Shown in pieces: positions 37,964 to 55,294 of a DNA stretch of 64,000 bases. A program made the position numbers and the translations under genes. The notes beneath the pieces are model-generated. The model searched no databases. It saw only the letters and a program-made list of their open reading frames with translations, and was not told the DNA's origin. The DNA comes from Hyphomicrobium sp. (GTDB lineage: Bacteria > Pseudomonadota > Alphaproteobacteria > Rhizobiales > Hyphomicrobiaceae), in contig NZ_JAIELN010000009.1 of NCBI RefSeq assembly GCF_019753045.1, positions 186,001 to 250,000 of the forward strand, in the 5' to 3' direction. Each line of letters starts with the position of its first letter. The stretch's first letter is position 1.

Positions 37964-39241
37964 CTAAAGCAGATCGCGAATGCGGTAATACAGCATACCG
38001 AGCGCCAGCATGTAATTGCCCGCGACCTCGCTGAGCGGCAGCCGAACGTGTCTGATCCGCTCGAACAGATCGAACTGCTCCGTCTGCCCACAAATTGCAT
38101 CAGAAACGATTTCCGCTGCAATGTGCGTCGCGTTCACGCCATGCCCCGAATATCCCTGAAGATAGTAAAGGTTCGGCTGAAGCCGCCCGATGGCCGGCAC
38201 GCGGTTGACGACGATGGCAATCGTTCCGCCCCACGCGAACTCGACGCGCACGTCTTTCAACTGCGGAAAAACCTCGACCATACGCGGACGCATGACGGCG
38301 GCAATATCCGGCGGATCGCGATTGGTATAGTTGCAGCGGCCGCCGAACAGCATGCGCCGGTCGGCCGACATCCGGTAATAATCGAGCACGACGTTACTGT
38401 CGGCGACCGCGAGATTTTGCGGATCGACCGTCGCCGTCTCGGCTCCCGTCAAAGGCTCGGTTGCGATGATATAGCTGCCCGCCGGCAGCATCAGTCCTTT
38501 GAGTCCCCGCTGCCCGAAACGATTGAAAATCTCGCCGCCGATGACGATCGTCTGCGCTTCGACCCGGCCGCGATCCGTCTGAACCCAGGGCTTCGCTCCG
38601 CCCGAAAGATTGACGGCAGGTGAGTTCTCGAAAATTTTGACCCCGAGCGAAGCGGCAGCGTTCGCTTCGCCGCGGCAGAGATTGAGCGGATGCAAGTGGC
38701 CGCTGCGCCGGTCGATGTAGCCGCCGTAATACGACGTCGTCCCGAGCACACCCGGCATCGCGTCCGCTTCGACGATCTCGAGTCCGCCGCCGTCGCCGTC
38801 CTTGATGCGATCCTCGACGTAGTCCCGCATGTGATTCATATGGCGGGGACGCGCTGCAACTTCCATCCAGCCGTACTTCAGATCACAGGCGATGCCATAC
38901 TTCGCGATCCGGCCCTCGATGATCTCGTGACCGCGGTAACGAATGTCGCGAACGAGTTTTGCACCCGCTTCGCCAAGCTGTTGCTTGATCGTCGCTTCGC
39001 CGCTGATGCCGCCGATCATCTGGCCGCCGTTGCGCCCAGAAGCGCCCCAGCCGATGCGCTTGGCTTCGAGCAGCACCACGGACCGGCCGCGCTCAGCCAA
39101 CGTCAGCGCCGTGGCGACGCCCGAGAAGCCGCCGCCGATAACGCACACGTCCGCCTTGACCGTACCTTCGAGCGCCGGATAGCGCGTCTGGTCGTTCGCC
39201 GTCGCGGCATAGTACGAGCGTATGTAATCTGGATCGGTCAC
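37964..39241 (-). CDS. puuB: Gamma-glutamylputrescine oxidase-like FAD oxidoreductase
   Basis: About 425 residues of a DAO-family enzyme: FAD motif DVCVIGGGFSGVATALTLAE, GWGASGRNGGQMIGG, and the C-terminal LQGYSGHGVNATHIAA. Next to puuA and a PotFGHI transporter it is best read as PuuB, oxidising gamma-glutamylputrescine. I place the start at GTG 39241 (MTDPDYIRSYYA); upstream in-frame codons overlap the permease gene. TTG 39280 is an alternative. Confidence 0.88.
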   Translation of the reverse strand: MTDPDYIRSYYAATANDQTRYPALEGTVKADVCVIGGGFSGVATALTLAERGRSVVLLEAKRIGWGASGRNGGQMIGGISGEATIKQQLGEAGAKLVRDIRYRGHEIIEGRIAKYGIACDLKYGWMEVAARPRHMNHMRDYVEDRIKDGDGGGLEIVEADAMPGVLGTTSYYGGYIDRRSGHLHPLNLCRGEANAAASLGVKIFENSPAVNLSGGAKPWVQTDRGRVEAQTIVIGGEIFNRFGQRGLKGLMLPAGSYIIATEPLTGAETATVDPQNLAVADSNVVLDYYRMSADRRMLFGGRCNYTNRDPPDIAAVMRPRMVEVFPQLKDVRVEFAWGGTIAIVVNRVPAIGRLQPNLYYLQGYSGHGVNATHIAAEIVSDAICGQTEQFDLFERIRHVRLPLSEVAGNYMLALGMLYYRIRDLL

Positions 39242-39296
39242 GATAAGCCGCTGCTTAGCGCGCCGGGCGGCGAAACACAAATCCCGCGTGACATCC

Positions 39297-40121
39297 TCAG
39301 CCCGCAGCTCCGAAGGCTTTGCGCCGTTCTCGTTCCGAGCGTTCCGTCTGCCGCTTCGTAACGTACGCTGCCAGCAGCAAGCCGATTGTGACAATGCCGA
39401 TCAGGATTGTCGAAATGGCGTTGATTTCCGGCGTCACGCCCAGTCGAACCTGACTGTAGATCTTCATAGGCAGCGTCGTCGCGCCGGGCCCTGTCGCGAA
39501 GCTCGAGATCACGAGATCATCGAGTGATAGCGTGAACGACAGCAGCCATGCCGAGATCACGGAGGGCGCGATGATCGGCAACGTCACCTGGAAGAAGGTG
39601 TTGATCGGCGTTGCGCCGAGATCCATCGCCGCCTCTTCGACGGATTTGTCGAAGTCCTGAAGGCGCGCCTGCACGACGACTGCCGCATAGCACATCGTGA
39701 AGGTGATATGCGCCATCGTAATGGTCCAAAAACCACGGTCGAATCCCATGGCGACGAACAACAGAAGCAGCGACAGACCGATGATGACTTCCGGCATGAC
39801 GAGAGGGGCGAAAATCATGCCCGAGAAAAGCGTGCGGCCGGGGAAACGCCCCATCCGCACCAGAGTGATCGCAGCGAGCGTGCCAAGAACCGTCGAGACG
39901 GTCGCAGACACGAGCCCGACGCGGATCGTCACCCAGGCGGCATCCTTCAAAGCCTGATTTTCGAGAAGCGCGCTATACCACTTCGTCGACCAGCCCGCCC
40001 ATACCGTGACGAGCTTCGACTCGTTGAAGCTGAATATCACCAGGAGGAGGATCGGAATGTAAAGGAACGCGAAGCCGAACGTGATTGACGTCAGATTGAA
40101 CCAGGAGAAGTTCTTATTCAT
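39297..40121 (-). CDS. potI: Putrescine ABC transporter permease PotI-like
   Basis: The 274-residue permease has six transmembrane helices and the coupling motif EEAAMDLGATPINTFFQVTLP. The ATG overlaps the potH stop (ATGA). Confidence 0.9.
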   Translation of the reverse strand: MNKNFSWFNLTSITFGFAFLYIPILLLVIFSFNESKLVTVWAGWSTKWYSALLENQALKDAAWVTIRVGLVSATVSTVLGTLAAITLVRMGRFPGRTLFSGMIFAPLVMPEVIIGLSLLLLFVAMGFDRGFWTITMAHITFTMCYAAVVVQARLQDFDKSVEEAAMDLGATPINTFFQVTLPIIAPSVISAWLLSFTLSLDDLVISSFATGPGATTLPMKIYSQVRLGVTPEINAISTILIGIVTIGLLLAAYVTKRQTERSERERRKAFGAAG

Positions 40122-41020
40122 CGCCCGCTCTCCCGCTCGATCTGCTGCTGGCGCTGGAAGAGTACAATCGGGATCGTCAACACCAGCAACAGGATGACCG
40201 CCACAGCCGACGCAAGGGGCCAGTCACGGTTGTTGAAGAATTCGTTCCACAGCGTCTTGCCGATCATCAAGGTGTCGGATCCGCCCAACAGATCCGGGAT
40301 CACGAACTCGCCGACGGCTGGAATGAAAACGAGAAGGCAGCCCGCGAAGACGCCGGGCAGCGATAGCGGAAAGGTGATTTGCCAGAAGGCGCGCCACGGT
40401 CGCGAGCCGAGATCCTGAGCCGCTTCGAGCAATGCCGGATTGATTTTTTCGAGGCTCGCATAGAGCGGCAGGATCATGAACGGCAGATACGAATAGACGA
40501 TGCCGATGTAGACCGCCGTCGTCGTGTTCATGATCTGCAGCGGCTCACTGATGATGCCGAGCTTCATCAGGAACATGGTGAGAAACCCTTCCGGCTTCAG
40601 GATCGCGATCCAGGCATAAATGCGGATCAGGAACGAGGTCCAGAACGGCAGGATGACGAGCATCATCAGCGTCGGCTGCCAGGATTTAGGCGCCCGCGCC
40701 ATGCCGTACGCCATCGGATAAGCGACGAGCAGCGTCAGAACAGTCGAGATCGCCGCAATCTTCACGCTCGATAAGTAGGCGTTGACGTAGAGCGGATCAC
40801 CGAAAATGAAGGTGTAATTCTCGAAGTCGAGCTGCGAGATGAACTTCCCGATGCCCTCCGACCAACTGAAAGTCGGTGTGTAGGGCGGAATGGCCGTCGC
40901 AACATCTGAAAGCGAGAGCTTGAAGACGATGAAGAACGGAATGAGGAAGAAAATCAGCAGCCACAAATATGGCGCAGCAATTACATACCAGCGTCCGAGG
41001 CCGTTAGCCTTTGCACTCAT
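40118..41020 (-). CDS. potH: Putrescine ABC transporter permease PotH-like
   Basis: The 300-residue permease has six helices, FFLIPFFIVFKLSLSD near the N-terminus and the coupling motif LEAAQDLGSRPWRAFWQITFP. ATG 41020 begins 9 bp after potG; the longer frame through potG is rejected. Confidence 0.91.
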   Translation of the reverse strand: MSAKANGLGRWYVIAAPYLWLLIFFLIPFFIVFKLSLSDVATAIPPYTPTFSWSEGIGKFISQLDFENYTFIFGDPLYVNAYLSSVKIAAISTVLTLLVAYPMAYGMARAPKSWQPTLMMLVILPFWTSFLIRIYAWIAILKPEGFLTMFLMKLGIISEPLQIMNTTTAVYIGIVYSYLPFMILPLYASLEKINPALLEAAQDLGSRPWRAFWQITFPLSLPGVFAGCLLVFIPAVGEFVIPDLLGGSDTLMIGKTLWNEFFNNRDWPLASAVAVILLLVLTIPIVLFQRQQQIERESGR

Positions 41021-41028
41021 GGTTCGCC

Positions 41029-42225
41029 TCAACCCGTCAGAACCACGCCCGCGTCGACGGGCCAGTCGAGCCAAACGCCGTCTTCCCAGCTGATCGGCCG
41101 CTCGACGGTATGCGCTGCGTTGGCGCGCAATGCGGTAATGCGTTCCCCCGGAGCGGTGCGGACATGATAATGGGAAATTGACCCCAGATACCCGATGTCC
41201 TCGACCTTGCCGGGAATGGCGTTGACCGCGCTTGCCGGCTGCTCGTGTGCGATGCGGATCTTCTCGGGCCTCAGCGCCAGCCACACCTGTTGACCGACCG
41301 AAACCGGCTCAGAGCTGCGCGTTTTAAATTGATAGCCGTCCTTCGCACTGATCTCGATGCAACCGTCACCGATCGCAGAGACCGTTCCCTCGAAGACATT
41401 CACGTCCCCGATGAAGCCTGCGATGTAGCGGGTCTTCGGATTCTCATAGATATCGCCGGGCGTCGCGACCTGAACGAGTACGCCCTTCTCCATGACGGCA
41501 ATCCGGCTCGCGACCGTCATCGCCTCTTCCTGATCGTGGGTCACGATGATGAAGGTCGTGCCCGTCGTTTCCTGAATGCGCATCAGTTCGAATTGGGCCT
41601 GCTGGCGCAGCTTCTTGTCGAGCGCGCCAAGTGGCTCATCCAGCAAAACGATCCTGGGCTTCTTGGCGATCGCGCGCGCAAGAGCGACACGCTGCTGCTG
41701 TCCGCCCGACAGCTGATTGGGCTTGCGTTTCGCAAACTGGCGAAGCTCCAGCATGCCCATGGCTTCATCGACGCGTTCAGCAATCAAATTTTTGGGCATA
41801 CCCTCCTGGCGGAGCCCGAAACCGATGTTGCCTTCGACCGTCATATGCGGAAAGAGCGCATACGACTGGAACATCATGTTCACAGGACGCTGATAGGGAG
41901 GCAGGTCTGTAATGTCTTGCCCGGCGACGATCGTCTTCCCCTGCGTCGGCCGCTCGAAGCCAGCAAGCATGCGCAGCAACGTACTTTTTCCGCAGCCCGA
42001 CGGACCGAGCAACGCGAAGAACTCTTTCTCATAAATATCGAGCGTCACGTCATTGACGGCGACGAAATCGTCGAACCGCTTCGTTATCCCCTCGAAGCGA
42101 ACGATGGGCGACAGGCTAGGGTTCTTCCAAGGAGCGAACCCCGACTGCGGCGCAGCCGTGCGAGGCCCGGCACGCTGGGACGAGGCATTGCTTGCCTGTG
42201 GATCGCGAGCAGTCACAACACCCAT
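41029..42225 (-). CDS. potG: Putrescine ABC transporter ATPase PotG-like
   Basis: The 398-residue ATPase has Walker A GPSGCGKST, signature LSGGQQQRVALARA, Walker B IVLLDEP and a C-terminal TOBE domain (VWLALRPEKIRIAHE). The Ala/Pro-rich N-terminal extension before IVRFEGITKRFDDF is longer than usual. Confidence 0.93.
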   Translation of the reverse strand: MGVVTARDPQASNASSQRAGPRTAAPQSGFAPWKNPSLSPIVRFEGITKRFDDFVAVNDVTLDIYEKEFFALLGPSGCGKSTLLRMLAGFERPTQGKTIVAGQDITDLPPYQRPVNMMFQSYALFPHMTVEGNIGFGLRQEGMPKNLIAERVDEAMGMLELRQFAKRKPNQLSGGQQQRVALARAIAKKPRIVLLDEPLGALDKKLRQQAQFELMRIQETTGTTFIIVTHDQEEAMTVASRIAVMEKGVLVQVATPGDIYENPKTRYIAGFIGDVNVFEGTVSAIGDGCIEISAKDGYQFKTRSSEPVSVGQQVWLALRPEKIRIAHEQPASAVNAIPGKVEDIGYLGSISHYHVRTAPGERITALRANAAHTVERPISWEDGVWLDWPVDAGVVLTG

Positions 42226-42280
42226 GTCTGACGTCCTTTAAGTATTCCTAGCGGCCCAATCACATGACGAGTGCACAAGA

Positions 42281-42315
42281 AAAAACCGCGCCAGGTTTTT
42301 GCTGGCGCGGTTTTT
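42281..42315 (-). terminator. Strong hairpin between potF and potG
   Basis: A 14-bp stem CCGCGCCAG / CTGGCGCGG extended by A/T pairs, loop of 7, is followed on the minus strand by TCTTGT after the T-run. Lying just after the potF stop, it should end most transcripts there, giving excess binding protein over the membrane subunits. Confidence 0.8.
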
Positions 42316-42317
42316 GG

Positions 42318-43427
42318 TTATTGCCCAGTCGTGATCCGGGTCCACATTCGGGTTACCAGCCGTTGCGTTTTGTTGTCCCAAGCGGTCTTCACGTAGAGCT
42401 TCTTGAATGTCTCGGGGTCAGGATAGACCGCCGGGTTCTTCAGTACACTCTCGTCGATATCTTTCTGCGAAGCAAGGTTTCCGTTGGCGTATTGAATGAA
42501 GTTCGACGCCTTTGCCATCACTTCCGGACGGTTGAGATAGTTGAGGAAAATGTGAGCCTCTTCGACATCCTTGGCATCCGCGGGGATGGCCATCATGTCG
42601 AACCACATCTGCGTGCCTTCCTTCGGCAGCGCGTAATGGATCGTCTGCCCGTTCTTCGCTTCCTCGGCCCTGTCGGCCGACTGGAGGATGTCTCCCGACC
42701 AGCCAAGTGCCATGCAGATGTCGCCGTTCGCAAGCGCGTTGATATATTCCGATGAGTGGAATTTCTTGATGTAGGGCCGGATCTTCATCATCAGATCCTC
42801 GGCCTTCTTGAAGTCCTCTTCCTTGGTCGTGTTGGGATCGATGCCGAGGTAATTGAGCGCCACAGGAAGAATGTCTTCCGGCGAATCGAGCACGTAAATT
42901 CCGCAATCCTTGAACTTGGCGGCGATCTCGGGCTTGAAAATGATGTCAAGAGAATCGACCGGTGCATCCGGCATACGTTCCTTGATCTTGGCTTCGTTGT
43001 AGCCGACGCCGGTCGTGCCCCACATCCAGTTCATTGCGTACTGATTGTCCGGATCATACTGGGCAACCCGGTTGTACACCTCGGGCCAGGCATTGGCGAA
43101 GTTCGGGATCTTGGACTTGTCGAGCTTCTGGAAGACCCCCGCCTTGATCTGACGCGACAGGAACGATCCGGTCGGCACGACCACGTCATATCCGCTGCCG
43201 CCCGCCAAAAGCTTCGTTTCCAGAACTTCGTTGCTGTCAAAGACGTCGTAGACGACCTTGATGCCCGTCTCTTTGGTAAAGTCCGTCAGGATCTCTGGGT
43301 CGATATAATCCGACCAGTTGTAGACCTTGACGACCCTGTCAGCTGCATAAGCCCCCGCACCTATCAGCGTAACAGCGGCCACAGCAACGCCTGCGGCGCA
43401 ACGCACCACTTTCCCTACAGTCAACAT
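42318..43427 (-). CDS. potF: Putrescine-binding periplasmic protein PotF-like
   Basis: The 369-residue protein has a signal peptide and the PotD/PotF start of the mature protein, VYNWSDYIDPEIL, with the aromatic ligand-contact residues. GSGYDVVVPTGSFL and WMWGTTGVGYNE also match. It delivers putrescine to PotGHI. The Cys pair in KDCGIYV and DICMALGW is conserved in relatives. Confidence 0.92.
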   Translation of the reverse strand: MLTVGKVVRCAAGVAVAAVTLIGAGAYAADRVVKVYNWSDYIDPEILTDFTKETGIKVVYDVFDSNEVLETKLLAGGSGYDVVVPTGSFLSRQIKAGVFQKLDKSKIPNFANAWPEVYNRVAQYDPDNQYAMNWMWGTTGVGYNEAKIKERMPDAPVDSLDIIFKPEIAAKFKDCGIYVLDSPEDILPVALNYLGIDPNTTKEEDFKKAEDLMMKIRPYIKKFHSSEYINALANGDICMALGWSGDILQSADRAEEAKNGQTIHYALPKEGTQMWFDMMAIPADAKDVEEAHIFLNYLNRPEVMAKASNFIQYANGNLASQKDIDESVLKNPAVYPDPETFKKLYVKTAWDNKTQRLVTRMWTRITTGQ

Positions 43428-43872
43428 TGGAATTCCTCCAGAACCTGTCGCAACCAGGATCGCCCGAAAAGAGCTGCTTCATTGCAAAACACCGCTCTCA
43501 TCGGCATTTTGCTAAACATCTCCCATTGTGCTCAATTTGTTTGAGGAGCACAACGGACCAATGTAAAAAGATCGAAGTAATCGGCACCTGCATAAGCAGT
43601 AAAGACAGCAAACTAAACTGCGCGTTCTTCGAGCAGGTGCCGCCCGATTGAACAGGGTTATGGTTTATCTAAACGGGCAACGGACTATGCTGCGCCGCTC
43701 TATTGAGGTTCTACCGCCGACCAGTTTAACTCTGCTGGCGTTCTGAACTCGAAACTCCGACATGTCTGACGATGCCCGACGAGATGTGCAGAGCCCTGCC
43801 GATGCCGTGGCTCAGGCGCGCCTCCGGAGCCGCGAAGCATTCCACTAGACGCCACCGAGTGAGACGCGCCAC
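43428..43872. promoter_or_regulatory. Divergent control region between potF and puuA
   Basis: This 445-bp gap holds the promoters of both putrescine operons. An inverted repeat TTGTGCTC (43526-43533) / GAGCACAA (43546-43553) with a 12-base spacer is a candidate operator. No gene was supported in it. Confidence 0.45.
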
Positions 43873-45309
43873 ATGGAAACGAACAAACCAAAATTCTCAG
43901 GTGCCCTTATGACTGCCCCACCCGCACGAATACTGAACGAAGATGGCGACTTCGGCGCCGGCTCGACACCCGAAGCACTTCGCGATTGGCTGCGCCAGCA
44001 TCGTATCGAAGAAATTGATTGCGCCGTGCCGGACATTGCAGGCGTTGCGCGCGGCAAGACGATGCCCGCCGAGAAGTTCGTGAAGCTCGATGCGGTCCAC
44101 CTTCCGATTTCGATCTTCCATCAGACGATTACGGGCGACTACGTCGGCTTCGAAGAGGACGGCCAGGAACTTTACGCCGAAAGCGATCTGATGATGGTGC
44201 CGGATCTTTCGACCATCCGGCCGGCTCCGTGGGCATCAAGTCCAACGGCCCAGGTCATTCATGACGCCCAATGGCAGAGCGGAGACCCTGTCGAGATCGC
44301 GCCCCGCAACGTTCTGAAACGCATCGTCGATCTCTACGCCAAGGAAGGCTGGGTGCCGGTCGTCGCGCCCGAACTCGAATTCTATCTGACGAAGACCAAC
44401 CCCGATCCCGACTATCCGCTGGAGCCGCCGATGGGCCGCTCGGGCCGCCCAGGCGCTGGCCGCCAAGCCTATAGCCTCGGCGCCGTCGACGAATACGACA
44501 AGATCGTCGACGACATCTACGAGTTCGCCGAGCGGCAATATCTGAAGATCGATACGATCATTCAGGAAGGCGGCGCAGCCCAGCTCGAAATCAATCTGCT
44601 GCACGGCGATCCGGTCGATCTCGCCGATCAGGTCTTCCTGTTCAAGCGGACCATTCGCGAAGCGGCATTCGCGCAGAACTGCTACGCGACCTTCATGGCC
44701 AAGCCCCTCGCCAACCAGCCGGGCAGCGCCATGCACGTCCATCAAAGCGTCGTTGACGCGAAGACCGGCAAGAACATCTTTACGCAGCCGAACGGCGAGC
44801 CGAGCAAGCTGTTCTTCAATTTCCTCGCGGGTCAGCAAGCGTACCTGCCAGCCGCGATGTGCCTCATCGCACCCTACGTCAATTCTTATCGCCGGCTCGT
44901 GCCGAATGGCGCCGCTCCGATTAACGTCGAATGGGGTTATGACAACCGCTCCGCCGGATTGCGGGTGCCCATCTCGCCGACGGTGGCGCGACGCGTGGAA
45001 AATCGTCTCGCCGGCGCCGATTCAAATCCCTACCTAGCGCTCGCAGCCAGCCTCGCCTGCGGCTATCTCGGAATGAAGAACGAACTCGAGCCGCGTCAAG
45101 CGGTCGTCGGCAACGCCTATCGAAACGACCACCAACTGCCGCGCGGCTTACTTGAAGCGCTGACCGACTTCGAAGAGAACACCGCACTCCACGACATCCT
45201 CGGCAAACGCTTTTGCCACGTGTACCTCGCATTGAAGCGCAGCGAGTTTGAGGAATTCATGCGCGTCATCAGCCCGTGGGAGCGCGAGCATCTTCTCCTG
45301 AGCGTTTGA
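43873..45309 (+). CDS. puuA: Gamma-glutamylputrescine synthetase-like (glutamine synthetase family)
   Basis: The 478-residue protein is a GS III/PuuA-type enzyme: DCAVPDIAGVARGKTMPA, PELEFYL, GGAAQLEINLLHGDP, GSAMHVHQSV, and NRSAGLRVPISPT. With puuB and PotFGHI adjacent, gamma-glutamylation of putrescine is the natural role. ATG 43873 is used; ATG 43909 is possible. Confidence 0.9.
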   Translation: METNKPKFSGALMTAPPARILNEDGDFGAGSTPEALRDWLRQHRIEEIDCAVPDIAGVARGKTMPAEKFVKLDAVHLPISIFHQTITGDYVGFEEDGQELYAESDLMMVPDLSTIRPAPWASSPTAQVIHDAQWQSGDPVEIAPRNVLKRIVDLYAKEGWVPVVAPELEFYLTKTNPDPDYPLEPPMGRSGRPGAGRQAYSLGAVDEYDKIVDDIYEFAERQYLKIDTIIQEGGAAQLEINLLHGDPVDLADQVFLFKRTIREAAFAQNCYATFMAKPLANQPGSAMHVHQSVVDAKTGKNIFTQPNGEPSKLFFNFLAGQQAYLPAAMCLIAPYVNSYRRLVPNGAAPINVEWGYDNRSAGLRVPISPTVARRVENRLAGADSNPYLALAASLACGYLGMKNELEPRQAVVGNAYRNDHQLPRGLLEALTDFEENTALHDILGKRFCHVYLALKRSEFEEFMRVISPWEREHLLLSV

Positions 45310-45597: not shown

Positions 45598-46725
45598 ATG
45601 ACATTAAAGGCTGAAACTTTGGCTCAAAAAACGGGCGACACCATTCTGTTCGTCGACGACGAACCGCTCTCGTTGAAATACTTCAAAAGCTCTGTCGGAA
45701 AATATGCCAACGTCGTGACAGCGAGCAGCCCCGAAGCGGCGCTGCATATATTAGAGTCAGCCGGCGACGACATTTCGGTTGTCGTGAGCGACGAACGCAT
45801 GCCGCGCGAGAGCGGCGTCTCCTTCCTGAGCGAAGTCCGCAAATCATGGCCCTCAACCGTCCGCGTGCTGACTAGCGCCTATGCCAACATCGATAATTTG
45901 CAGCACGCCATCAACGACGCTGCAATCTATCGCTTCGTGCCCAAGCCCTGGAATATCGACGAATTATGCACGGCGATGCAGGATGCGCTTCACGTCGAGC
46001 GCTCGGCCGCCGCCGTGTCCGAACCGGTGCTTGGCCCGAGCAGTGGGGGAGGAGATGCGGAAAGCGCGAACATGGCACTCCTCGCCGTTCTGGCGGCCGG
46101 CCTCGAAACGCCGCTGAAATCCCTTGATACTGAAGCACTCCAACTCGCTCAGCTGAGCCGGCCGAGTTCTTTGGAAGCTTCTCCTTCGGTTACTTCGTAT
46201 CTCGGATCCTGGGGGTCCCGGTTGAGGTTTGGAAAGATGAATGCATCCGCCATGCAGATCCGGCGCGACGTCGAGCATTGCAAGTCGCTGGCGAAGTCCA
46301 TCGGCAACCTTGCGCGCAGCCTCTCGGATCCCGCCACCACGCAATCGTCTTCGATGGCCGATACCCTTTCCGAAGTCGTCGAGCAGGCCGTGATCTTCCC
46401 CTCTGGGACAACCCTCGCCAATCTCGCCACCGGTCAAGACTTCACGTATCGCATTCCGCGCGAGATCATGAAGTTCGTGCTGGCCAATTTGCTTCGGGGC
46501 GCAATGAAGTCCAACACTTTCCCGAGAGTGGAATTGGTTTCCGGTGCCGAACATAATGAGGTTCGAATCATTTCGGCCGTGGACCCCGAGCCGGGGACGA
46601 TGGAAAATAATCAGTCCTGGCGAACGGTCCGCTGTGCCCTGTGGGCATTTGGAGGCGAACTGCTGTCCTCGACTGACAACAATTTGAGCATATCCACCCT
46701 TACCGTGTGCCTTCCGAAGGCATAA
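45598..46725 (+). CDS. Response regulator with degenerate histidine-kinase-like C-terminus
   Basis: The 375-residue protein has a REC domain (about 13-135) with the acidic pair DDEP at 20-23 and Asp65 in VVVSDERMP, and the KPWN motif. The C-terminal half resembles a dimerisation plus HATPase fold but lacks clear DxGxG and GxGxG boxes, so it is probably not a kinase. The ATG at 45598 is chosen. This layout recalls PhcR/PhcQ of Ralstonia. It precedes the PhcB-like gene. Confidence 0.82.
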   Translation: MTLKAETLAQKTGDTILFVDDEPLSLKYFKSSVGKYANVVTASSPEAALHILESAGDDISVVVSDERMPRESGVSFLSEVRKSWPSTVRVLTSAYANIDNLQHAINDAAIYRFVPKPWNIDELCTAMQDALHVERSAAAVSEPVLGPSSGGGDAESANMALLAVLAAGLETPLKSLDTEALQLAQLSRPSSLEASPSVTSYLGSWGSRLRFGKMNASAMQIRRDVEHCKSLAKSIGNLARSLSDPATTQSSSMADTLSEVVEQAVIFPSGTTLANLATGQDFTYRIPREIMKFVLANLLRGAMKSNTFPRVELVSGAEHNEVRIISAVDPEPGTMENNQSWRTVRCALWAFGGELLSSTDNNLSISTLTVCLPKA

Positions 46726-46799
46726 ACCGACGAGATGTATCTCCAAGGCATTGATAATTCGAAATCATCTAAACGCTTTCTAAATACCGCAGCGCCAAA

Positions 46800-46847
46800 C
46801 TGAACCACTGTGATAACCTTTTATTATCCACAGTCGGCGTAGTTCAG
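46800..46847. promoter_or_regulatory. Nested inverted repeat before the PhcB-like gene
   Basis: Inner arms ACTGTGATAA (46807-46816) and TTATCCACAGT (46824-46834) pair with one bulged base, and outer arms CTGAAC / GTTCAG flank them. The element ends 16 bases before the TTG start and could be an operator or an mRNA hairpin controlling the downstream gene. Confidence 0.5.
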
Positions 46848-46863
46848 TCATGGAGCTGTCCCC

Positions 46864-48261
46864 TTGCGCATCGAAAGAGATATTGATCGCACGGTCTCAT
46901 TCCGGAGCAGTCAGGGTACGGTTTTTCGCGGCACCCTGAGCAAGCTCTCAAGACGCAATATTGTCTTCGAGATCTACAATCCATTTTCGCCCGTTCAAAT
47001 GTCCGAGGTCCTGAGCGATCTCAAGGTGCGGCGCGGCAAGAACCTCGTTTATCAAGGCGACGCGGTCGTAACCGGCATCGTCACAACAAGCATTTTGGTG
47101 GTCGTATCCGCGACGCTGGTAAATCAGTGGTCTGCCGTTGACGCGATCATCTCGGACCCTGCAGGACTTGAAGCCGAAGTCGGCCGTTTCGTCGATGAAT
47201 GGGACCGCGCCAATAAACTTCAGCCGAACTATCAGCTCAAAGTCGCCGACCTCCGATCGTTCCTGAGCGACTTGAGCTTTTGGCTGGATCAGGTCGACCT
47301 GGCAGTCGAAGGCGAACCAGGTGCCAGCCACACCGTCCTCGACACCGCCCGATTTGAACAAATCAAAGCACCTGTGATGCCGCGTCTGACGCAGCTCTTC
47401 CTCGAACTCGAGGAAGCCTGCCGCCAGCTCGACGTCGACGAAGTCGAAAATCACAAGCAACTGGCCCAACGCGACCTACTGCCGCTCATGATGGCGTCGC
47501 CCTTCTTCAACCGCGTCTATTCCAAGCCCCTCGGCTACGCGGGCGACTACGAGATGGTGAACATGATGTTCCGCAAGGAGCGCCGCGGAAAGACCACCTA
47601 TGGCCAGATCATTAATGATTGGTTGCTGAACGGAGGACCGCCCGAGGCCCACCGTAACCGCATCTACATGCTGGGCAAAATGCTCGACAAAGCGGCGGAA
47701 GACGCCGCCGCAGCAGACAAGAAGGTCCGCATCCTCAACGTCGGCTGCGGTCCGGTGCAGGAACTCCAGCTCTTCCTAGCGAAGAACAAGGATGCCCATC
47801 GCTTCTCATTCGATCTTCTTGATTTTAATGCCGAAACTCTCGCCTACGCCAAACGCCAGATCGAGGCGGCGACGGCCGGCAGCGAAGAACAGCCTAATGT
47901 CACGTACATCCTGAAGACGGTGCAGGATCTTCTGCGTCAAGCCATCGAGCTGCCGGAGAACTCCAAGACCTACGACATCATCTATTGCGCCGGTCTCTTC
48001 GATTACCTGTCCGATCGCGTTTGCACCAAACTGGTACGGCTCTTTTACCAGTGGTGCGAGCCGGGCGGACGCGTGATCGTTACAAATGTCCACTCGTCAA
48101 ACCCTGTGAAAGGTTTGATGGAGCATATTATGGAGTGGCATCTGGTGATGCGTGACGAGTCGGATATGGTCCGCCTCGCGCCTGATCTTGGGCCGCTAAA
48201 GATTTATACAGATGAGACGGGTATCAACGTCTTTCTGGAGATAGATAAACCCCCCGTTTAA
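46864..48261 (+). CDS. PhcB-like 3-hydroxy fatty acid methyl ester synthase family methyltransferase
   Basis: The 465-residue protein has an N-terminal PilZ-like barrel (about 1-95), a helical middle and a C-terminal class I SAM methyltransferase with KPLGYAGDYEMVNMMF at 221-236, AHRNRIYMLG near 262 and motif I ILNVGCGPVQEL at 290-301. This set is the hallmark of the extracellular-factor (3-OH PAME type) biosynthesis family including PhcB of Ralstonia. The start is TTG 46864 with GGAG eight bases upstream. The sensor kinase follows 4 bp later. A diffusible methyl ester signal is inferred. Confidence 0.83.
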   Translation: MRIERDIDRTVSFRSSQGTVFRGTLSKLSRRNIVFEIYNPFSPVQMSEVLSDLKVRRGKNLVYQGDAVVTGIVTTSILVVVSATLVNQWSAVDAIISDPAGLEAEVGRFVDEWDRANKLQPNYQLKVADLRSFLSDLSFWLDQVDLAVEGEPGASHTVLDTARFEQIKAPVMPRLTQLFLELEEACRQLDVDEVENHKQLAQRDLLPLMMASPFFNRVYSKPLGYAGDYEMVNMMFRKERRGKTTYGQIINDWLLNGGPPEAHRNRIYMLGKMLDKAAEDAAAADKKVRILNVGCGPVQELQLFLAKNKDAHRFSFDLLDFNAETLAYAKRQIEAATAGSEEQPNVTYILKTVQDLLRQAIELPENSKTYDIIYCAGLFDYLSDRVCTKLVRLFYQWCEPGGRVIVTNVHSSNPVKGLMEHIMEWHLVMRDESDMVRLAPDLGPLKIYTDETGINVFLEIDKPPV

Positions 48262-48265
48262 CGGC

Positions 48266-50905
48266 ATGGATGAAAAGAGCGACTTACGGCACGCCTTCGA
48301 GGCTGAGGAGCAAGAGCTTCGGCTAAGGCAGTCGAAAGTCGCTTGCATCCTCGGCATTGTGCTGATCCCGGCAGGGATCACTCTCGATAGCATCAGCTAT
48401 TCTGACCAGTTCAAAACCTTGATTGCGATCCGGCTCGTCGCGGCGGCCCTGATCGCAGTCATCTACGCCCTGCACTTCTGGGACAAGACGGCGGCTCACG
48501 TTCGCTATCTGACGATGGCGGGCCTGCTGATCGCGGTCGCCTCGATAGCGGTGATGATCGGCATCACCGACGGCGCGAATTCGACCTACTACAACGGCCT
48601 CTTTCTCATCCTCTTTGCCGTCGGCGTTCTGGCGCCGATGCAGCCCTTCGAGGCCGCACTTTTGTGCGTCTCGACGCTCGGAATTTACATCATCGCATGC
48701 TTGCAGGTGCCGTCCGCCGCCGACACTGTAAAGACCTTGATGAACAATCTTTATTTTCTTGTGCTCACCTGCATCATTTCGGTCACCGCCGTTCATTTCA
48801 ACTACCGCCGCCGCTTCAACGAATTCCGCTTGAAGTTCAAGCTCGCGTCTCAGCATCAGGAGCTGTCGGCGCTCGACCGTCTGAAATCGCAGTTCTTTGC
48901 CAACGTCAGCCACGAGTTGAGAACGCCGCTCACGCTCATTCTGGCGCCGGTCGAGCGGCTGAAAGTCGACGTCGCGGGCTTGGGCCCGTCGGCCGAGCAA
49001 TTGCTGGATGTCATCGAGAACAATGCGCTGCGGCTGTTGCGTCTTGTGAATGACATTCTGAGCCTGATCCGCCTTGAGGAAGGCCGCGCCACGCTATCGA
49101 AGAAGCCCGTCGATATGGCGCACTTCCTGAAGCACACGGCTGCTTCGATGAAGCATCTCGCCACACTGAAGGGTGTGAACCTCGAGCTCCAGGAACCGAC
49201 CGGCGACCTGCTGATCAACGCTGATCCCGACGCCCTCGAGAAGATCGTCAGCAACGTCATCGCCAACGCGATCAAGTTTACGCCGCCTGAAGGCCGCATC
49301 GATATTTCCGCGCATCGCGAAGAAGAGATGGTGGCGGTCACAATCTCCGACACCGGTATCGGTATTCCGGCTGAACAGCTGCCTCATATTTTCGATCGCT
49401 TCTATCAGGTGGACGGCTCCGCGACCCGCCGCCATCAGGGTCTGGGTTTAGGCCTCGCCCTGGTTCGCGAATTGATTACGCGCCATGGCGGAAACGTTAC
49501 GGCAACGAGCAATTCGGGCAGCGGTACGACATTCGTTTTACGTTTTCCTCATGCCCTGCAGGTTACCCAATCAGACATGAGCAATTCCGAAGAAAAGCCG
49601 GACGGGCTTGCCGACGACCCATTGCGCACCTTCGATCGCAAAGCATCGGCCCGCGCCATCATGATCACGGATAACGCCCCTTCCGCGATCGGGCAGGTCA
49701 GCGAGCCACAAGCCAAGGATGAACGCACCGAGCTCCCTCTCCTCCTCGTCGTCGACGACGAGCCGGATATGCGCCGCTATCTGGCGTCGATGCTGCGCGA
49801 AAACTATCGCATCATCGAGGCGCCGGACGGCATCACCGCGCTCGAGAAAGCCAAGGAACAGAAACCCGATCTGATTTTGCTCGACGTCATGTTGCCGGGC
49901 GTCACGGGGCTCGAGGTCTGTCGCTCGCTCAAGGAAAGAGCCGAGACGCGCGCCATCAAAATTATCATTCTGACGGCGCGAGCCGACGAAGAAGCCAAGA
50001 TCACCGCACTGAAGCATGGCGCCGACGACTTCCTGATAAAGCCGTTCAGCGGCCTGGAAGTCCGCTCGCGCATCGCCAATCTGATCAAGGCTTCCAGGCT
50101 CGAGACCGACCTTTACAGGACGAACGCCGAGCTGAAACAGAGCCTGCAGCAACTGCGCGAAACAGAAGCAGCCCTGGTTCAAAACGCGCGTCTCAGCGCC
50201 CTTGGAACGATGGCCGCCGGCCTGTTGCACGAAATCGGCAACCCGCTGAACTTCATGGGAACGGCGTTGCAATTGGCGGCCCGCGACCCAACCATTCAAG
50301 GCGATCCCGACACCGCGGATACGCTGAAGGACATCCACGCGGGCTATGAGCGCATTCACCGCGTCGTAACCGATCTCAGAGGCTTCACAGCGCCGCATCG
50401 CCCCGAGCACCCGCGGCCGTTCCACATCGAATCGGCAATCGACCATGCGCTTCGCTTCACGGCGCATATCCAGAAGGGAATAACGATTACGAGGAATATC
50501 GCGGACGATGGGCTCGTCGTCGGCTCGCAGTCGACGATCGCACAGGTTCTCGTCAACCTCATCGTCAACGCCGTCGCCGCGGTCCGCGCCGTCGAGGAAG
50601 AGCGCAAACCTGAAATTACCATTACATCATTCGTTGAGGGTGACGAACTGATTGTCTCGGTAAGAGACAACGGAACCGGCATCGATCCGAAAATTCAAAC
50701 CCAGATTTTCGATCCATTCTTCTCCACGAAGGACGTAGGCGAAGGCATGGGACTTGGCTTGGCAGTCAGCCATCGGATAATTGCGAATCATGGGGGTTCA
50801 CTGACTGTTAAGAGTAGTCTTGGAGAGTGGACCGAGTTCCGTTTCAACCTCCCGATATCGTCGGACAAAGAGAACCAGGTCTTCCATGGAGTCGTTTCGC
50901 ACTGA
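48266..50905 (+). CDS. PhcS-like hybrid sensor with two histidine kinase modules
   Basis: The 879-residue protein has about six transmembrane helices (25-178), a first kinase module with His216 in FANVSHELRTPLT and G boxes SDTGIGIP (361-368) and GLGLGLALV (392-400), a receiver domain (490-610) with Asp540 in LILLDVMLPG, and a second kinase module with His655 in LLHEIGNPLNF and a second ATPase region ending DNGTGID and GEGMGLGLAVS. Both modules look intact. It overlaps the downstream response regulator by 20 bp. It likely senses the PhcB-like product. Confidence 0.88.
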   Translation: MDEKSDLRHAFEAEEQELRLRQSKVACILGIVLIPAGITLDSISYSDQFKTLIAIRLVAAALIAVIYALHFWDKTAAHVRYLTMAGLLIAVASIAVMIGITDGANSTYYNGLFLILFAVGVLAPMQPFEAALLCVSTLGIYIIACLQVPSAADTVKTLMNNLYFLVLTCIISVTAVHFNYRRRFNEFRLKFKLASQHQELSALDRLKSQFFANVSHELRTPLTLILAPVERLKVDVAGLGPSAEQLLDVIENNALRLLRLVNDILSLIRLEEGRATLSKKPVDMAHFLKHTAASMKHLATLKGVNLELQEPTGDLLINADPDALEKIVSNVIANAIKFTPPEGRIDISAHREEEMVAVTISDTGIGIPAEQLPHIFDRFYQVDGSATRRHQGLGLGLALVRELITRHGGNVTATSNSGSGTTFVLRFPHALQVTQSDMSNSEEKPDGLADDPLRTFDRKASARAIMITDNAPSAIGQVSEPQAKDERTELPLLLVVDDEPDMRRYLASMLRENYRIIEAPDGITALEKAKEQKPDLILLDVMLPGVTGLEVCRSLKERAETRAIKIIILTARADEEAKITALKHGADDFLIKPFSGLEVRSRIANLIKASRLETDLYRTNAELKQSLQQLRETEAALVQNARLSALGTMAAGLLHEIGNPLNFMGTALQLAARDPTIQGDPDTADTLKDIHAGYERIHRVVTDLRGFTAPHRPEHPRPFHIESAIDHALRFTAHIQKGITITRNIADDGLVVGSQSTIAQVLVNLIVNAVAAVRAVEEERKPEITITSFVEGDELIVSVRDNGTGIDPKIQTQIFDPFFSTKDVGEGMGLGLAVSHRIIANHGGSLTVKSSLGEWTEFRFNLPISSDKENQVFHGVVSH

Positions 50906-52139
50906 TCAGCCGGTCGAGATCCTGATCGTCGACGACGAGCCACAGGCCGTCAAATATTTCAAGAAGGCCTTCGGCACGCGATACGACGTGCTCACCGCAA
51001 CGAGCGCGGACGAAGCCGAATCTCTCATCCTCTCCGGCAACCACAACATCGCGCTGGTCATTTCCGACCAGCGCATGCCAGGACGCAGCGGCGTCAGCCT
51101 CCTTAACCGCATCCGTAACGAACGTCCCGACATCATCCGTATGTTGACAACCGCATACGCGGATCTCGATAGCGCTATCGATGCCGTCAATAAGGGCGAG
51201 ATCCTCCGCTACATTTCGAAGCCGTGGGACCTCCGCGTGCTCGAAGCCGAAATCGAACAGGCGATCACCTTCTATCTCCTGAAGAACGAATACGACATGC
51301 TCCTGCGCGACAAGCTCAGCGCGTTGCATCGTACGCTTTTGCGCGATCGCATGAACGACCTTGCGATGCTGTCGGGCCTGCTGCCCTACAACAACGCGCC
51401 GCTGACGATGTATCACTATTTGAAGGAAGCGATCGCCGAAACCGCCTGGCGGCCATCGGCCCAGAAGGCATGGTCTCAGCTCCGCATCAGAGACCACTGG
51501 CGCATTCCCGTTGAAGAAACCCAGCGCGCCATTGATCTTTCGGCAGTGCTGACGACGCCACCCCTATTGGCGGATGCTCATCCGAGCGAATTCGATCTCG
51601 TCGCCGTGCTGACGGACTGTGCCGACGAGATCAACCGCGAACTCGGCGGCCAACAGGTCGTGATCCATGCGGACCAGGCGCAACTCGCCGTTTCTGCCGA
51701 TCCCGCCGCGATGCGCGAGATCATCACGCGTCTGATGGATCCGATGAGCCAGTGGGCTGCAGCCGGCAGCGTGCTGCTCGTCAACGTCTCACGCGACACG
51801 CTTGATGATGACACGCCGGGCGTCAGCATTCATTTCGAACTCCGCAATTGCGAGCCGCAGCGATCGATGCAGGATTGCGTGCTGTTTGCGCCGCCGCTGC
51901 ACACCGCGCCCAAGCGCGCCAGCGACTATCTGAAAGCCGCGCTCGCGATCGGCCACATCGGCGGCACAATCAGCTCTCCGCCCATGGAAAACGGCTACAA
52001 GCAAATCCATGTTGCGCTTCCGGCACGCGCCAAGGCCGTCAACACCAAGAAGATCAACGCGCTTCCGCAGCAGTGGCTGCAGGATCTGAGCGAGGAATAC
52101 GAAAAGTGGGTGCTGGGCACTCTCGAAATGGCGGCGTGA
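50886..52139 (+). CDS. Response regulator with degenerate kinase-like C-terminus (PhcR/PhcQ-like)
   Basis: The 417-residue protein has a REC domain with DDEPQ near residue 16, Asp61 in LVISDQRMPGRSG and KPWDLRVLEAEI, a helical linker (about 135-215) and a C-terminal region with a HATPase-like layout but no intact ATP-binding motifs. There is no DNA-binding domain, so output must be through protein contact. It closes the four-gene cassette and shares architecture with the gene at 45598. Confidence 0.85.
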   Translation: MESFRTDQPVEILIVDDEPQAVKYFKKAFGTRYDVLTATSADEAESLILSGNHNIALVISDQRMPGRSGVSLLNRIRNERPDIIRMLTTAYADLDSAIDAVNKGEILRYISKPWDLRVLEAEIEQAITFYLLKNEYDMLLRDKLSALHRTLLRDRMNDLAMLSGLLPYNNAPLTMYHYLKEAIAETAWRPSAQKAWSQLRIRDHWRIPVEETQRAIDLSAVLTTPPLLADAHPSEFDLVAVLTDCADEINRELGGQQVVIHADQAQLAVSADPAAMREIITRLMDPMSQWAAAGSVLLVNVSRDTLDDDTPGVSIHFELRNCEPQRSMQDCVLFAPPLHTAPKRASDYLKAALAIGHIGGTISSPPMENGYKQIHVALPARAKAVNTKKINALPQQWLQDLSEEYEKWVLGTLEMAA

Positions 52140-52690: not shown

Positions 52691-54112
52691 ATGACTGCCC
52701 ACGTTTCGGTCAAGGAAGATGACTTCCTCCTGACAGGCTTTCTGAGCAGGCAGCGCGCCGCGTTCCTCAAGGATGGGCCGCCGTCGGCCGCGCAACGACG
52801 GGCCGATCTGCTCAAACTGAAAACGGCGTTGCAGAAGCGGCGCACAGCTATCGAAGCGGCCGTCAGCAAGGACTTCGGCTACCGGTCTGCGTACGAAACC
52901 CGGATCATGGAAGTCACGCCGGTCATTCAGACGATCAATTACCTCCGCCGCAATCTGACGAAGTGGATGCGTCCCGAACGCCGCCGCGTGGCAATGCACT
53001 TCGTGCCCGGCCGAGCCCGCGTCGTTTATCAGCCGCTCGGTGTCGTCGGCATCATCTCACCCTGGAATTATCCGCTGTCGCTCGCGCTCACGCCGCTCGC
53101 CACCGCAATCGCAGCAGGCAATCGCGCCATCCTGAAGCCGTCCGAGTTGACGCCCGCGACCAGCGAACTCTTGAAGTCGATGCTGCGCGAGATTTTCCCT
53201 GAGGAGCAGGTCGCCGTCGTCACCGGTGGACCAGAGATCGGCGCCGCGTTCTCGCGCCTCCCGTTCGATCATCTCGTCTTCACCGGCAGCACCAATGTCG
53301 GGCGTTCGGTGATGAAGGAAGCCGCGGAAAATCTTGTCCCAGTAACGCTCGAACTTGGCGGCAAATCTCCGGCCTTGATCGGCCCAGATGCCGATATCGA
53401 TGCTGCAGCCGTCAGCGTCGCCTACGGAAAGCTCGCGAATGCCGGCCAAACCTGCATCGCGCCCGATTACGTCCTGGTGCACGAAAAGGACGTGGCCGCA
53501 TTCGTGGCATCATACGACGCGACCGCACTCAAGTTCTATCCTCAAGGAGCAGCCGACCGGAATTACACCTCCATCGTCAACGCGAAGCATGAGAGCCGCA
53601 TTCAGAAGCTGATCGATGATGCGAAGGAAAAAGGCGCCAAGGTTATCGAAGTCGCGAATGGTGGCACAGCCGATCCACGCAAGCTTGCACCCGTGATCGT
53701 GCTCAATGTCACTGACGAGATGGCCATCATGCAGCAGGAAATCTTCGGGCCGGCACTCCCCGTCATGACCTACCGCACCATTGACGAGGCGATTGGCTAC
53801 ATAAACCGCAAGCCGCGGCCGCTGGCGCTCTATTACTTCGGCCAGAACAGCGACTATCGCCAGAAGGTCCTGACGCGGACGACCTCCGGCAACGTCACGA
53901 TCAACGACACCCTGATGCATTACGTTCAAGACGACCTGCCATTCGGCGGCGTGGGAATGTCAGGCATGGGCGCCTATCACGGGATCGAAGGCTTCAAATC
54001 GCTCAGCCATGCCAAGGGCGTTTTCGAGCAGAACAAGTGGAATCTCGCGCGGATCCTGCACCCGCCATTCAACAAAACGACGGATATGGTCATCCGGTAT
54101 TTTTCGCGGTGA
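52691..54112 (+). CDS. Coniferyl-aldehyde-dehydrogenase-like aldehyde dehydrogenase
   Basis: The 473-residue ALDH has SPWNYPLSLALTPLATAIAA, VTLELGGKSP with the general-base Glu, the nucleophile Cys in NAGQTCIAPDY and PFGGVGMSGMGAYHG, typical of the coniferyl aldehyde dehydrogenase subgroup. No signal peptide. It oxidises aldehydes with NAD(P); the natural substrate is unknown, and formaldehyde or lignin-type aldehydes are both possible in a methylotroph. Confidence 0.9.
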   Translation: MTAHVSVKEDDFLLTGFLSRQRAAFLKDGPPSAAQRRADLLKLKTALQKRRTAIEAAVSKDFGYRSAYETRIMEVTPVIQTINYLRRNLTKWMRPERRRVAMHFVPGRARVVYQPLGVVGIISPWNYPLSLALTPLATAIAAGNRAILKPSELTPATSELLKSMLREIFPEEQVAVVTGGPEIGAAFSRLPFDHLVFTGSTNVGRSVMKEAAENLVPVTLELGGKSPALIGPDADIDAAAVSVAYGKLANAGQTCIAPDYVLVHEKDVAAFVASYDATALKFYPQGAADRNYTSIVNAKHESRIQKLIDDAKEKGAKVIEVANGGTADPRKLAPVIVLNVTDEMAIMQQEIFGPALPVMTYRTIDEAIGYINRKPRPLALYYFGQNSDYRQKVLTRTTSGNVTINDTLMHYVQDDLPFGGVGMSGMGAYHGIEGFKSLSHAKGVFEQNKWNLARILHPPFNKTTDMVIRYFSR

Positions 54113-54746: not shown

Positions 54747-54980
54747 CTAGTGTTGTCCGCCTTTGCGGCCCGCTTCGGCCGCTCGCCGTGGGTCATTCCG
54801 GAAGTTACCGCCACTCTCGTGGCCGCCCTTCCTTCCGGCCTGAGACGCAAGTTCATGATTCCGCGAAAAGCTGCGCTCATTGTCCGGAACGCTTGCGCCG
54901 CCCTTGCGGGCAATCTCACGCTGCTTTTCGGCATCCATGGATGCAAAGCCGCGCTTTGATGTTCTGTCCTCTTGCGCCAT
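54747..54980 (-). CDS. KGG-motif general stress protein
   Basis: The 77-residue hydrophilic protein has repeated KGG motifs: REIARKGGASVP, AGRKGGHESGG and AGRKGGQH, with GFASMD near the start. Such proteins are stress-induced and intrinsically disordered. GAGGAAGG precedes the ATG at 54980; the longer frame is rejected. Confidence 0.85.
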   Translation of the reverse strand: MAQEDRTSKRGFASMDAEKQREIARKGGASVPDNERSFSRNHELASQAGRKGGHESGGNFRNDPRRAAEAGRKGGQH

Positions 54981-55294
54981 CTGAAAATTACCTTCCTCAG
55001 TGAAAAAATCTTCGCCTTGAAAAATTCGCCTCGAAAATCGAGACAATGCGAATTGCCCAGAAAAGTGTGCCGGTCCGTGTGGGGGTCCGATCGCCACAAG
55101 GCAACTGAAGGATGAACCTCGCCTTCTCAGGTCGGTTCCGATAATTCTCCTCGCCGGTACATCACGTTTTGGAAAGAAATTTCACGAAGCGGAGCTTCGC
55201 GCGAGCCAAGCGGCGTGTCCCGCCAACCGTCCCTTCACGAGCATGCCGCATAGAGCCTCGGCCTGCGACGCAAGCCGAGGCGAGGATCGATCAA

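Follow-up and report, generated by a model that had tools for sequence, protein, structure and literature searches.

Which signalling system is encoded by the four consecutive genes at positions 45598-52139 of a 64,000-nucleotide stretch of Hyphomicrobium sp. DNA (contig NZ_JAIELN010000009.1; the whole stretch is called the window)? Judged from its sequence, the locus is probably a Phc-type quorum-sensing cassette with fatty-ester signalling, of the kind encoded by phcBSRQ in Ralstonia. Protein comparisons make it close to certain that its synthase (P0002) and its membrane sensor kinase (P0003) belong to the Phc families. In this Hyphomicrobium relative of Phc the sensor is larger, a form that is also found in other bacterial phyla. 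The four open reading frames lie on the same strand, as the first-pass annotation had read them, and the features of the locus are as follows:

45598..46725, + strand: P0001, response regulator of 375 amino acids (aa) with a receiver (Asp65) and an unclassified C-terminal half; extra Phc-type regulator upstream of the synthase
46726..46863, + strand: intergenic stretch with blocks common to 15 aligned Hyphomicrobium sequences
46864..48261, + strand: P0002, PhcB-family methyltransferase of 465 aa, TTG start; conserved N-terminal beta domain (about residues 1-95), helical middle, and class I S-adenosylmethionine (SAM) methyltransferase (about residues 211-465)
48266..50905, + strand: P0003, PhcS-type membrane sensor followed by histidine kinase, receiver and histidine kinase (HK1-REC-HK2), 879 aa
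48266..48865, + strand: membrane sensor domain of P0003, a homologue of the PhcS sensor with about six hydrophobic segments
48851..49561, + strand: HK1 of P0003 (His216)
49730..50089, + strand: internal receiver of P0003 (Asp540), which falls in a separate clade
50171..50881, + strand: HK2 of P0003 (His655), equivalent to the kinase of PhcS (Ralstonia His230)
50886..52139, + strand: P0004, PhcQ-like response regulator of 417 aa with a receiver (Asp61) and a degenerate histidine-kinase-like half

The gap of 4 bp between P0002 and P0003 and the overlap of the kinase gene with that of the last regulator (20 bp) were as first described; P0001 ends 138 bp before the start of P0002.

Homology of the four proteins to Phc components

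Alignment of Cupriavidus PhcB with P0002 extended over the whole length with 43% identity (E 3.4e-122), and the homology is far beyond chance. Identity to the PhcB of C. basilensis was 47.4% in the first 95 residues and 45.2% in the methyltransferase part. The motifs GYAGDYEM and LNVGCGPVQ, on which the PhcB assignment had first been based, are both in P0002, and in 82 full-length rows the blocks GYAGDY, AHRxR, CGP, AGLFDY and TNV were invariant or nearly so. The available text of PMC6989110 reports that R22C in Ralstonia PhcB slows Phc activation; P0002 has R22, and R stood at that position in 74 of the 82 rows (the numbering presumably agrees with that of Ralstonia, by way of Cupriavidus). 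Comparison with PhcB and a tree, set beforehand as a test, placed P0002 as a full-length PhcB relative apart from unrelated short enzymes: 41 PhcB-family rows held together (support 95) in a quick tree with 20 short methyltransferases as the outgroup. By comparison with Cupriavidus and Paraburkholderia, P0002 is thus a full-length PhcB-type methyltransferase.

P0002 is single copy in its own genome. When Cupriavidus PhcB was searched in six Hyphomicrobium genomes, the sole match was the P0002 orthologue in the four with the cassette, and nothing matched in the two without it. An even draw of 397 Pseudomonadota genomes gave 15 matches at E<=1e-15, eight of them full-length (>=374 bits, the window's own included) and seven confined to the methyltransferase part (<=78 bits). 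The PhcB family had been described as betaproteobacterial, which did not hold: full-length relatives occur outside that class, for example in Planctomycetota, where 199 genomes (centre included) gave 18 matches, six of them full-length at >=342 bits. A scan of genome contigs gave at least 584 pattern stretches, at least 563 of them confirmed as relatives; the best 80 were kept, ranked by likeness to P0002 and hence not an even sample. Among these best 80 of at least 563, the nearest named relative was that of Hyphomicrobium facile DSM 1565 (97%). The tblastn search of P0002 against 72,556 plasmid records matched 144. One of them, from Paraburkholderia graminis, covered 80% or more of P0002 (41.5% identity over 97% of the protein), and on this plasmid the next genes encode a membrane kinase and two receiver proteins. 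In a Candidatus Anammoximicrobium metagenome-assembled genome (MAG), a second, divergent PhcB-like methyltransferase (224 bits; L082:6278-7759) was observed just upstream of the phcB-like gene.

P0003 had been described as a double-kinase hybrid sensor, and Pfam gave it two HisKA/HATPase pairs and one receiver. The membrane part of Paraburkholderia PhcS matched residues 6-201 of P0003 (E 1.4e-29), and its kinase scored 189.7 bits to HK2 vs 51.4 bits to HK1. When Cupriavidus PhcS was searched in the genome of the window itself, it matched HK2 of P0003 with 194 bits and the sensor-HK1 half with 119.5 bits, the next kinase scoring 70.8 bits. The 200-residue sensor of P0003 had one match at E<=0.001 per genome in six relatives, each at the phc locus. 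Among the 397 Pseudomonadota genomes, the eight with full-length PhcB all had this sensor too (>=68 bits), and a ninth genome gave a match of 32 bits. This stray relative (L145, genome G122) is a protein ending like an adenylate/guanylate cyclase. Ralstonia PhcS is autophosphorylated at His230 according to the available text of PMC11960443; its counterparts by motif are His231 of C. basilensis and, in HK2 of P0003, His655. The H-box was kept in 33 of 33 hybrids for HK1 (window included), in 33 of 33 for HK2 and in 39 of 39 PhcS; five hybrids shorter than 840 aa, four of them cut by contig ends, were left out of this count. A PhcS-type membrane sensor kinase, homologous in both sensor and terminal kinase, therefore stands beside the PhcB relative, with an added HK1-REC. 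These sequence comparisons identify the membrane sensor of P0003 as that of PhcS; the terminal kinase of P0003 is likewise that of PhcS, preceded by an additional kinase-receiver pair.

In P0001 and P0004, Pfam showed the receiver domain only, and the first-pass statement that neither regulator has a DNA-binding domain was borne out. Cupriavidus PhcQ scored 123.6 bits to P0004 vs 92.2 bits to P0001, and the receiver of Cupriavidus PhcR 90.1 vs 68.9 bits. In every one of eight relatives searched with P0004, the top match lay at the phc locus, and it was PhcQ in both Cupriavidus. P0004 would thus be the PhcQ-type receiver protein without a DNA-binding domain, the exact pairing being left open by the receiver tree; from the scores it appears closest to PhcQ and is called PhcQ-like. 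The P0001 receiver grouped with the PhcQ, PhcR and P0004-type receivers, and not with the internal receiver of the hybrid. By profile, the family of the P0004-type C-terminal half matched histidine-kinase transmitters (ZraS, E 7.2e-16; 17 of 29 rows used, six of which keep an H-box-like stretch), and the model of this half in P0004 showed the helices and strands of a transmitter, but its H-, N- and G-boxes were not found by eye; P0004 is therefore likely a pseudokinase. Neither P0004 nor P0001 keeps the H-box, as read by eye, while the PhcR receiver matches both. In four gammaproteobacterial hybrid loci (L032, L035, L039, L045), the first receiver protein keeps the H-box, as in PhcR, and another receiver protein comes after it.

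No match to a crude LysR helix-turn-helix pattern was obtained in the frames of the window of at least 150 codons, in agreement with the earlier remark that the window holds no PhcA-like regulator. A pattern of this kind gave one 296-aa LysR-like frame, not identifiable as PhcA, in two Cupriavidus loci and four 20-kb flanks.

The loci of Cupriavidus basilensis and C. gilardii, which are among the 80 kept relatives, encode a methyltransferase, a 443-aa kinase, a receiver-kinase and a receiver, i.e., the phcBSRQ order described for Ralstonia. The claim that the Hyphomicrobium genes follow the phcBSRQ logic stood in part: counterparts of PhcS and PhcQ lie beside the PhcB relative, but the correspondence is not one-to-one, with a kinase-receiver pair added to PhcS, no clear PhcR and an extra regulator upstream.

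Distribution and direction of change

Among 22 Hyphomicrobium genomes, 15 carried P0001, P0002 and P0004, and the same seven were without all three. These genus-wide counts cover P0001, P0002 and P0004; at the loci whose genes were read (L020-L024), P0003 was flanked by P0002 and P0004. Across the 14 other Hyphomicrobium, P0002 changed least (78-98% identity), P0004 was 67-97% identical, and P0001 changed most (50-92%).

The best 80 relatives and the plasmid made up 81 synthase loci (L019-L099), of which 76 could be scored for sensor type; three were cut by contig ends (L029, L057, L078), one had split frames (L074) and one had no sensor on its contig (L066). Taxon labels were taken from record titles, many of them of MAGs. 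The hybrid sensor was found in 37 loci and the short sensor in 39. All 37 betaproteobacterial loci (36 labelled loci and the Paraburkholderia plasmid) had the short PhcS, and 37 of the 39 loci outside Betaproteobacteria had the hybrid; the two exceptions with a short sensor (L080, L097) were MAGs labelled Rickettsiales, and these labels may be wrong. In the synthase tree, the Burkholderiales rows formed one clade (39 rows, support 100) and the sensor trait needed two changes; in the tree rooted on short methyltransferases, the short form was nested among hybrids. On the simplest history, the hybrid probably came first, and the short sensor of Burkholderiales, PhcS, derives from it by loss of HK1-REC.

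Alternatively, the arrangement seen in Burkholderiales would be the original one, and P0003 would have arisen when the genes of PhcS and PhcR fused. The order of its domains (transmembrane part, kinase, receiver, kinase) does equal PhcS followed by PhcR (receiver-kinase), and a rough FastTree of 141 kinases put the PhcR kinases on the HK1 side, with long branches, the one result leaning to a fusion. The same tree grouped PhcS with HK2, and by the scores above the terminal kinase corresponds to that of PhcS. A tree of 164 receivers, with few columns and many open forks, joined the internal receivers of the hybrids in one clade (38 rows, support 100), with the 126 stand-alone receivers, including PhcR, PhcQ, P0001 and P0004, lying apart from it. 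Hybrids, moreover, surround the classic clade, and a fusion origin is scarcely likely.

Possible acyl substrate, proposed mechanism and competing explanations

Six loci have a type I polyketide synthase (PKS) frame of 2,082-2,133 aa that lies on the same strand as phcB and stops 17-43 bp upstream of the first possible start of that gene. Five of these loci are from Verrucomicrobiota (L033, L043, L048, L077, L084) and one from a gammaproteobacterial MAG (L045). The three PKS that were scanned (L033, L045, L048) are fully reducing, with ketosynthase, acyltransferase, dehydratase, zinc-dehydrogenase (enoylreductase), ketoreductase and carrier domains (KS-AT-DH-ER-KR-ACP), and no thioesterase hit was obtained in them at E<=1e-5. 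Reducing PKS make fatty-acid-like chains, and the PhcB-family enzyme next to them therefore probably acts on an acyl chain. Among the scanned genes of the Hyphomicrobium window, no PKS lies beside the cassette; the PKS neighbours elsewhere hint at a fatty methyl ester in Hyphomicrobium. Together with the conserved SAM domain, these neighbours in other phyla indirectly support a fatty-ester chemistry. Frame pieces of the same PKS type were also seen at L074.

In the proposed mechanism, P0002 would use SAM to methylate the carboxyl group of a fatty acyl chain (in all likelihood that of a 3-hydroxy fatty acid), and the methyl ester so formed would be diffusible. It would be bound by the membrane domain of P0003, and binding would alter the phosphorylation of His216 in HK1 and Asp540 in the internal receiver. 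These two residues would gate HK2 (His655), the equivalent of the PhcS kinase, from which phosphate would pass to P0004 (Asp61) and P0001 (Asp65). Because P0004 and P0001 have no DNA-binding domain, they would act by protein contact, as PhcQ does on PhcA. Ralstonia PhcQ binds PhcA and protects it, according to the available text of PMC13320629, and protein contact is for this reason the best guess for both Hyphomicrobium regulators.

A wider scheme could as easily be right as wrong. Phc would be an old, multi-phylum fatty-acyl methyl-ester system whose ancestral receptor was the HK1-REC-HK2 membrane hybrid with built-in phosphate gating, Ralstonia PhcS being a stripped descendant. Opitutia-type Verrucomicrobiota and a gammaproteobacterium would make the acyl chain by a dedicated reducing PKS, with PhcB releasing or capping the product as the methyl ester, and Hyphomicrobium would run the system without PhcA, via receiver-pseudokinase adaptors.

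Several points weigh against reading the locus as a fatty-ester quorum-sensing cassette. Its support consists of homology, gene order, conserved sites and co-occurrence, and the substrate, ligand, direction of phosphate flow and output are inferred. Cupriavidus and Paraburkholderia proteins stood in for the Ralstonia ones in all Phc comparisons, and since identity to PhcB was only about 43%, the substrate of P0002 may differ from that of PhcB. The seven genomes beyond the window's own in which sensor and PhcB co-occur represent two families (f67, f90), therefore few and non-independent events. P0004 was placed with neither PhcQ nor PhcR in the receiver tree, and the PhcR receiver also matches it. 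The loci with a PKS neighbour belong to Verrucomicrobiota and to a gammaproteobacterial MAG, and Hyphomicrobium is not among them. The cassette is dispensable, because seven of the 22 Hyphomicrobium genomes are without it, and the direction of change proposed for the sensor depends on quick trees with long branches and distant outgroups.

The methyltransferase might instead modify a substrate that is not a signal, such as a lipid of the membrane, a cofactor or a protein (the sensor itself, for example), and the cassette would then monitor the state of the envelope or of fatty acids and not cell density. A generic methyltransferase fold and weak matches to CheR in 22 of 43 family members at E<=1 agree with this explanation; it is unlikely, given the pairing of the methyltransferase with the PhcS sensor domain across genomes, the full-length homology to PhcB and the PKS neighbours in six loci. 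Far less probable is a cassette serving mainly as an output of cyclic di-GMP (c-di-GMP), with the N-terminal domain of P0002 as a PilZ receptor that sets signal synthesis. This domain is as conserved as the methyltransferase part, and the structure model showed a six-stranded beta domain at residues 10-85. The PilZ label given to P0002 in the first-pass annotation nevertheless failed: Pfam PilZ had no match in P0002 at E<=0.1, PilZ was missing among the 25 of 34 families displayed for 43 family members at E<=1, and the c-di-GMP motif RxxxR-(D/N)x(S/A/G/C)xxG was found in 0 of 82 family rows. The fold comparison of the whole P0002 model was filled by methyltransferases; the N-terminal domain was modelled as part of the whole protein. 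The PilZ name should be dropped unless this domain alone proves to have the PilZ fold.

Related systems and neighbouring genes

Compared with Ralstonia Phc and its relatives in Cupriavidus and Paraburkholderia (phcBSRQ and phcA), the Hyphomicrobium cassette has adjacent genes, a homologous membrane sensor, a homologous kinase with the equivalent His and a PhcQ-like regulator without a DNA-binding domain. The synthase has a similar length, 465 aa here and 464-468 aa in Ralstonia, where PhcR has 368-374 aa and PhcQ 336-337 aa (available text of PMC8578825). In contrast to Ralstonia, the sensor has the extra HK1-REC, there is no clear PhcR and an extra regulator lies upstream, giving the order RR-B-S-Q (RR, response regulator) in an alphaproteobacterial host.

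Leptospira LvrA (NF047465) was the top NCBIfam hit of P0003, with 312.9 bits. It is likewise a hybrid of kinase, receiver and kinase, but the score was far below the family cut-off of 1200 bits. Lvr is not known to include a PhcB-type synthase. The Legionella Lqs system (LqsA, LqsS, LqsR) also combines a small-molecule synthase, a membrane kinase and a separate response regulator; its signals and genes are unlike those of Phc, and LqsA is pyridoxal-5-phosphate-dependent (available text of PMC10653808, which also describes Phc as functional in C. taiwanensis).

A 2023 survey, in its available text, places phc in Betaproteobacteria only. The present loci extend that survey, and at a guess its best-pair method missed the 880-aa hybrids. 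In the open-access literature covered, no account was found of Phc beyond Betaproteobacteria or of the hybrid sensor form. If the proposed reading is true, fatty methyl esters are a signal class common to alpha-, gamma- and deltaproteobacteria, planctomycetes and verrucomicrobia; a Hyphomicrobium becomes a harmless model in which the working of the receptor and of PhcQ-like adaptors can be studied independently of virulence; and direct, testable predictions for the phosphorelay follow from the hybrid receptor.

TTG was the start of P0002 in all 15 aligned Hyphomicrobium sequences. The stretch 46726..46863 may, from this alignment, contain a separate promoter of the synthase gene; a consensus promoter scan of it gave four promoter-like sites vs a shuffled mean of 2.3, which by itself is no support. 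Around the cassette, at 37964-45309 and 52691-54112 of the window, Pfam identified genes for an FAD oxidoreductase, an ABC transporter with its solute-binding protein, a glutamine synthetase-like protein and an aldehyde dehydrogenase, which we read as genes of polyamine type or polyamine use. The transporter, glutamine synthetase-like and aldehyde dehydrogenase genes are likewise present around the cassette at four other close loci, that of H. facile included, and partly at a fifth on a short contig. A small KGG stress-repeat protein (Pfam PF10685) is encoded at 54747-55097 on the minus strand.
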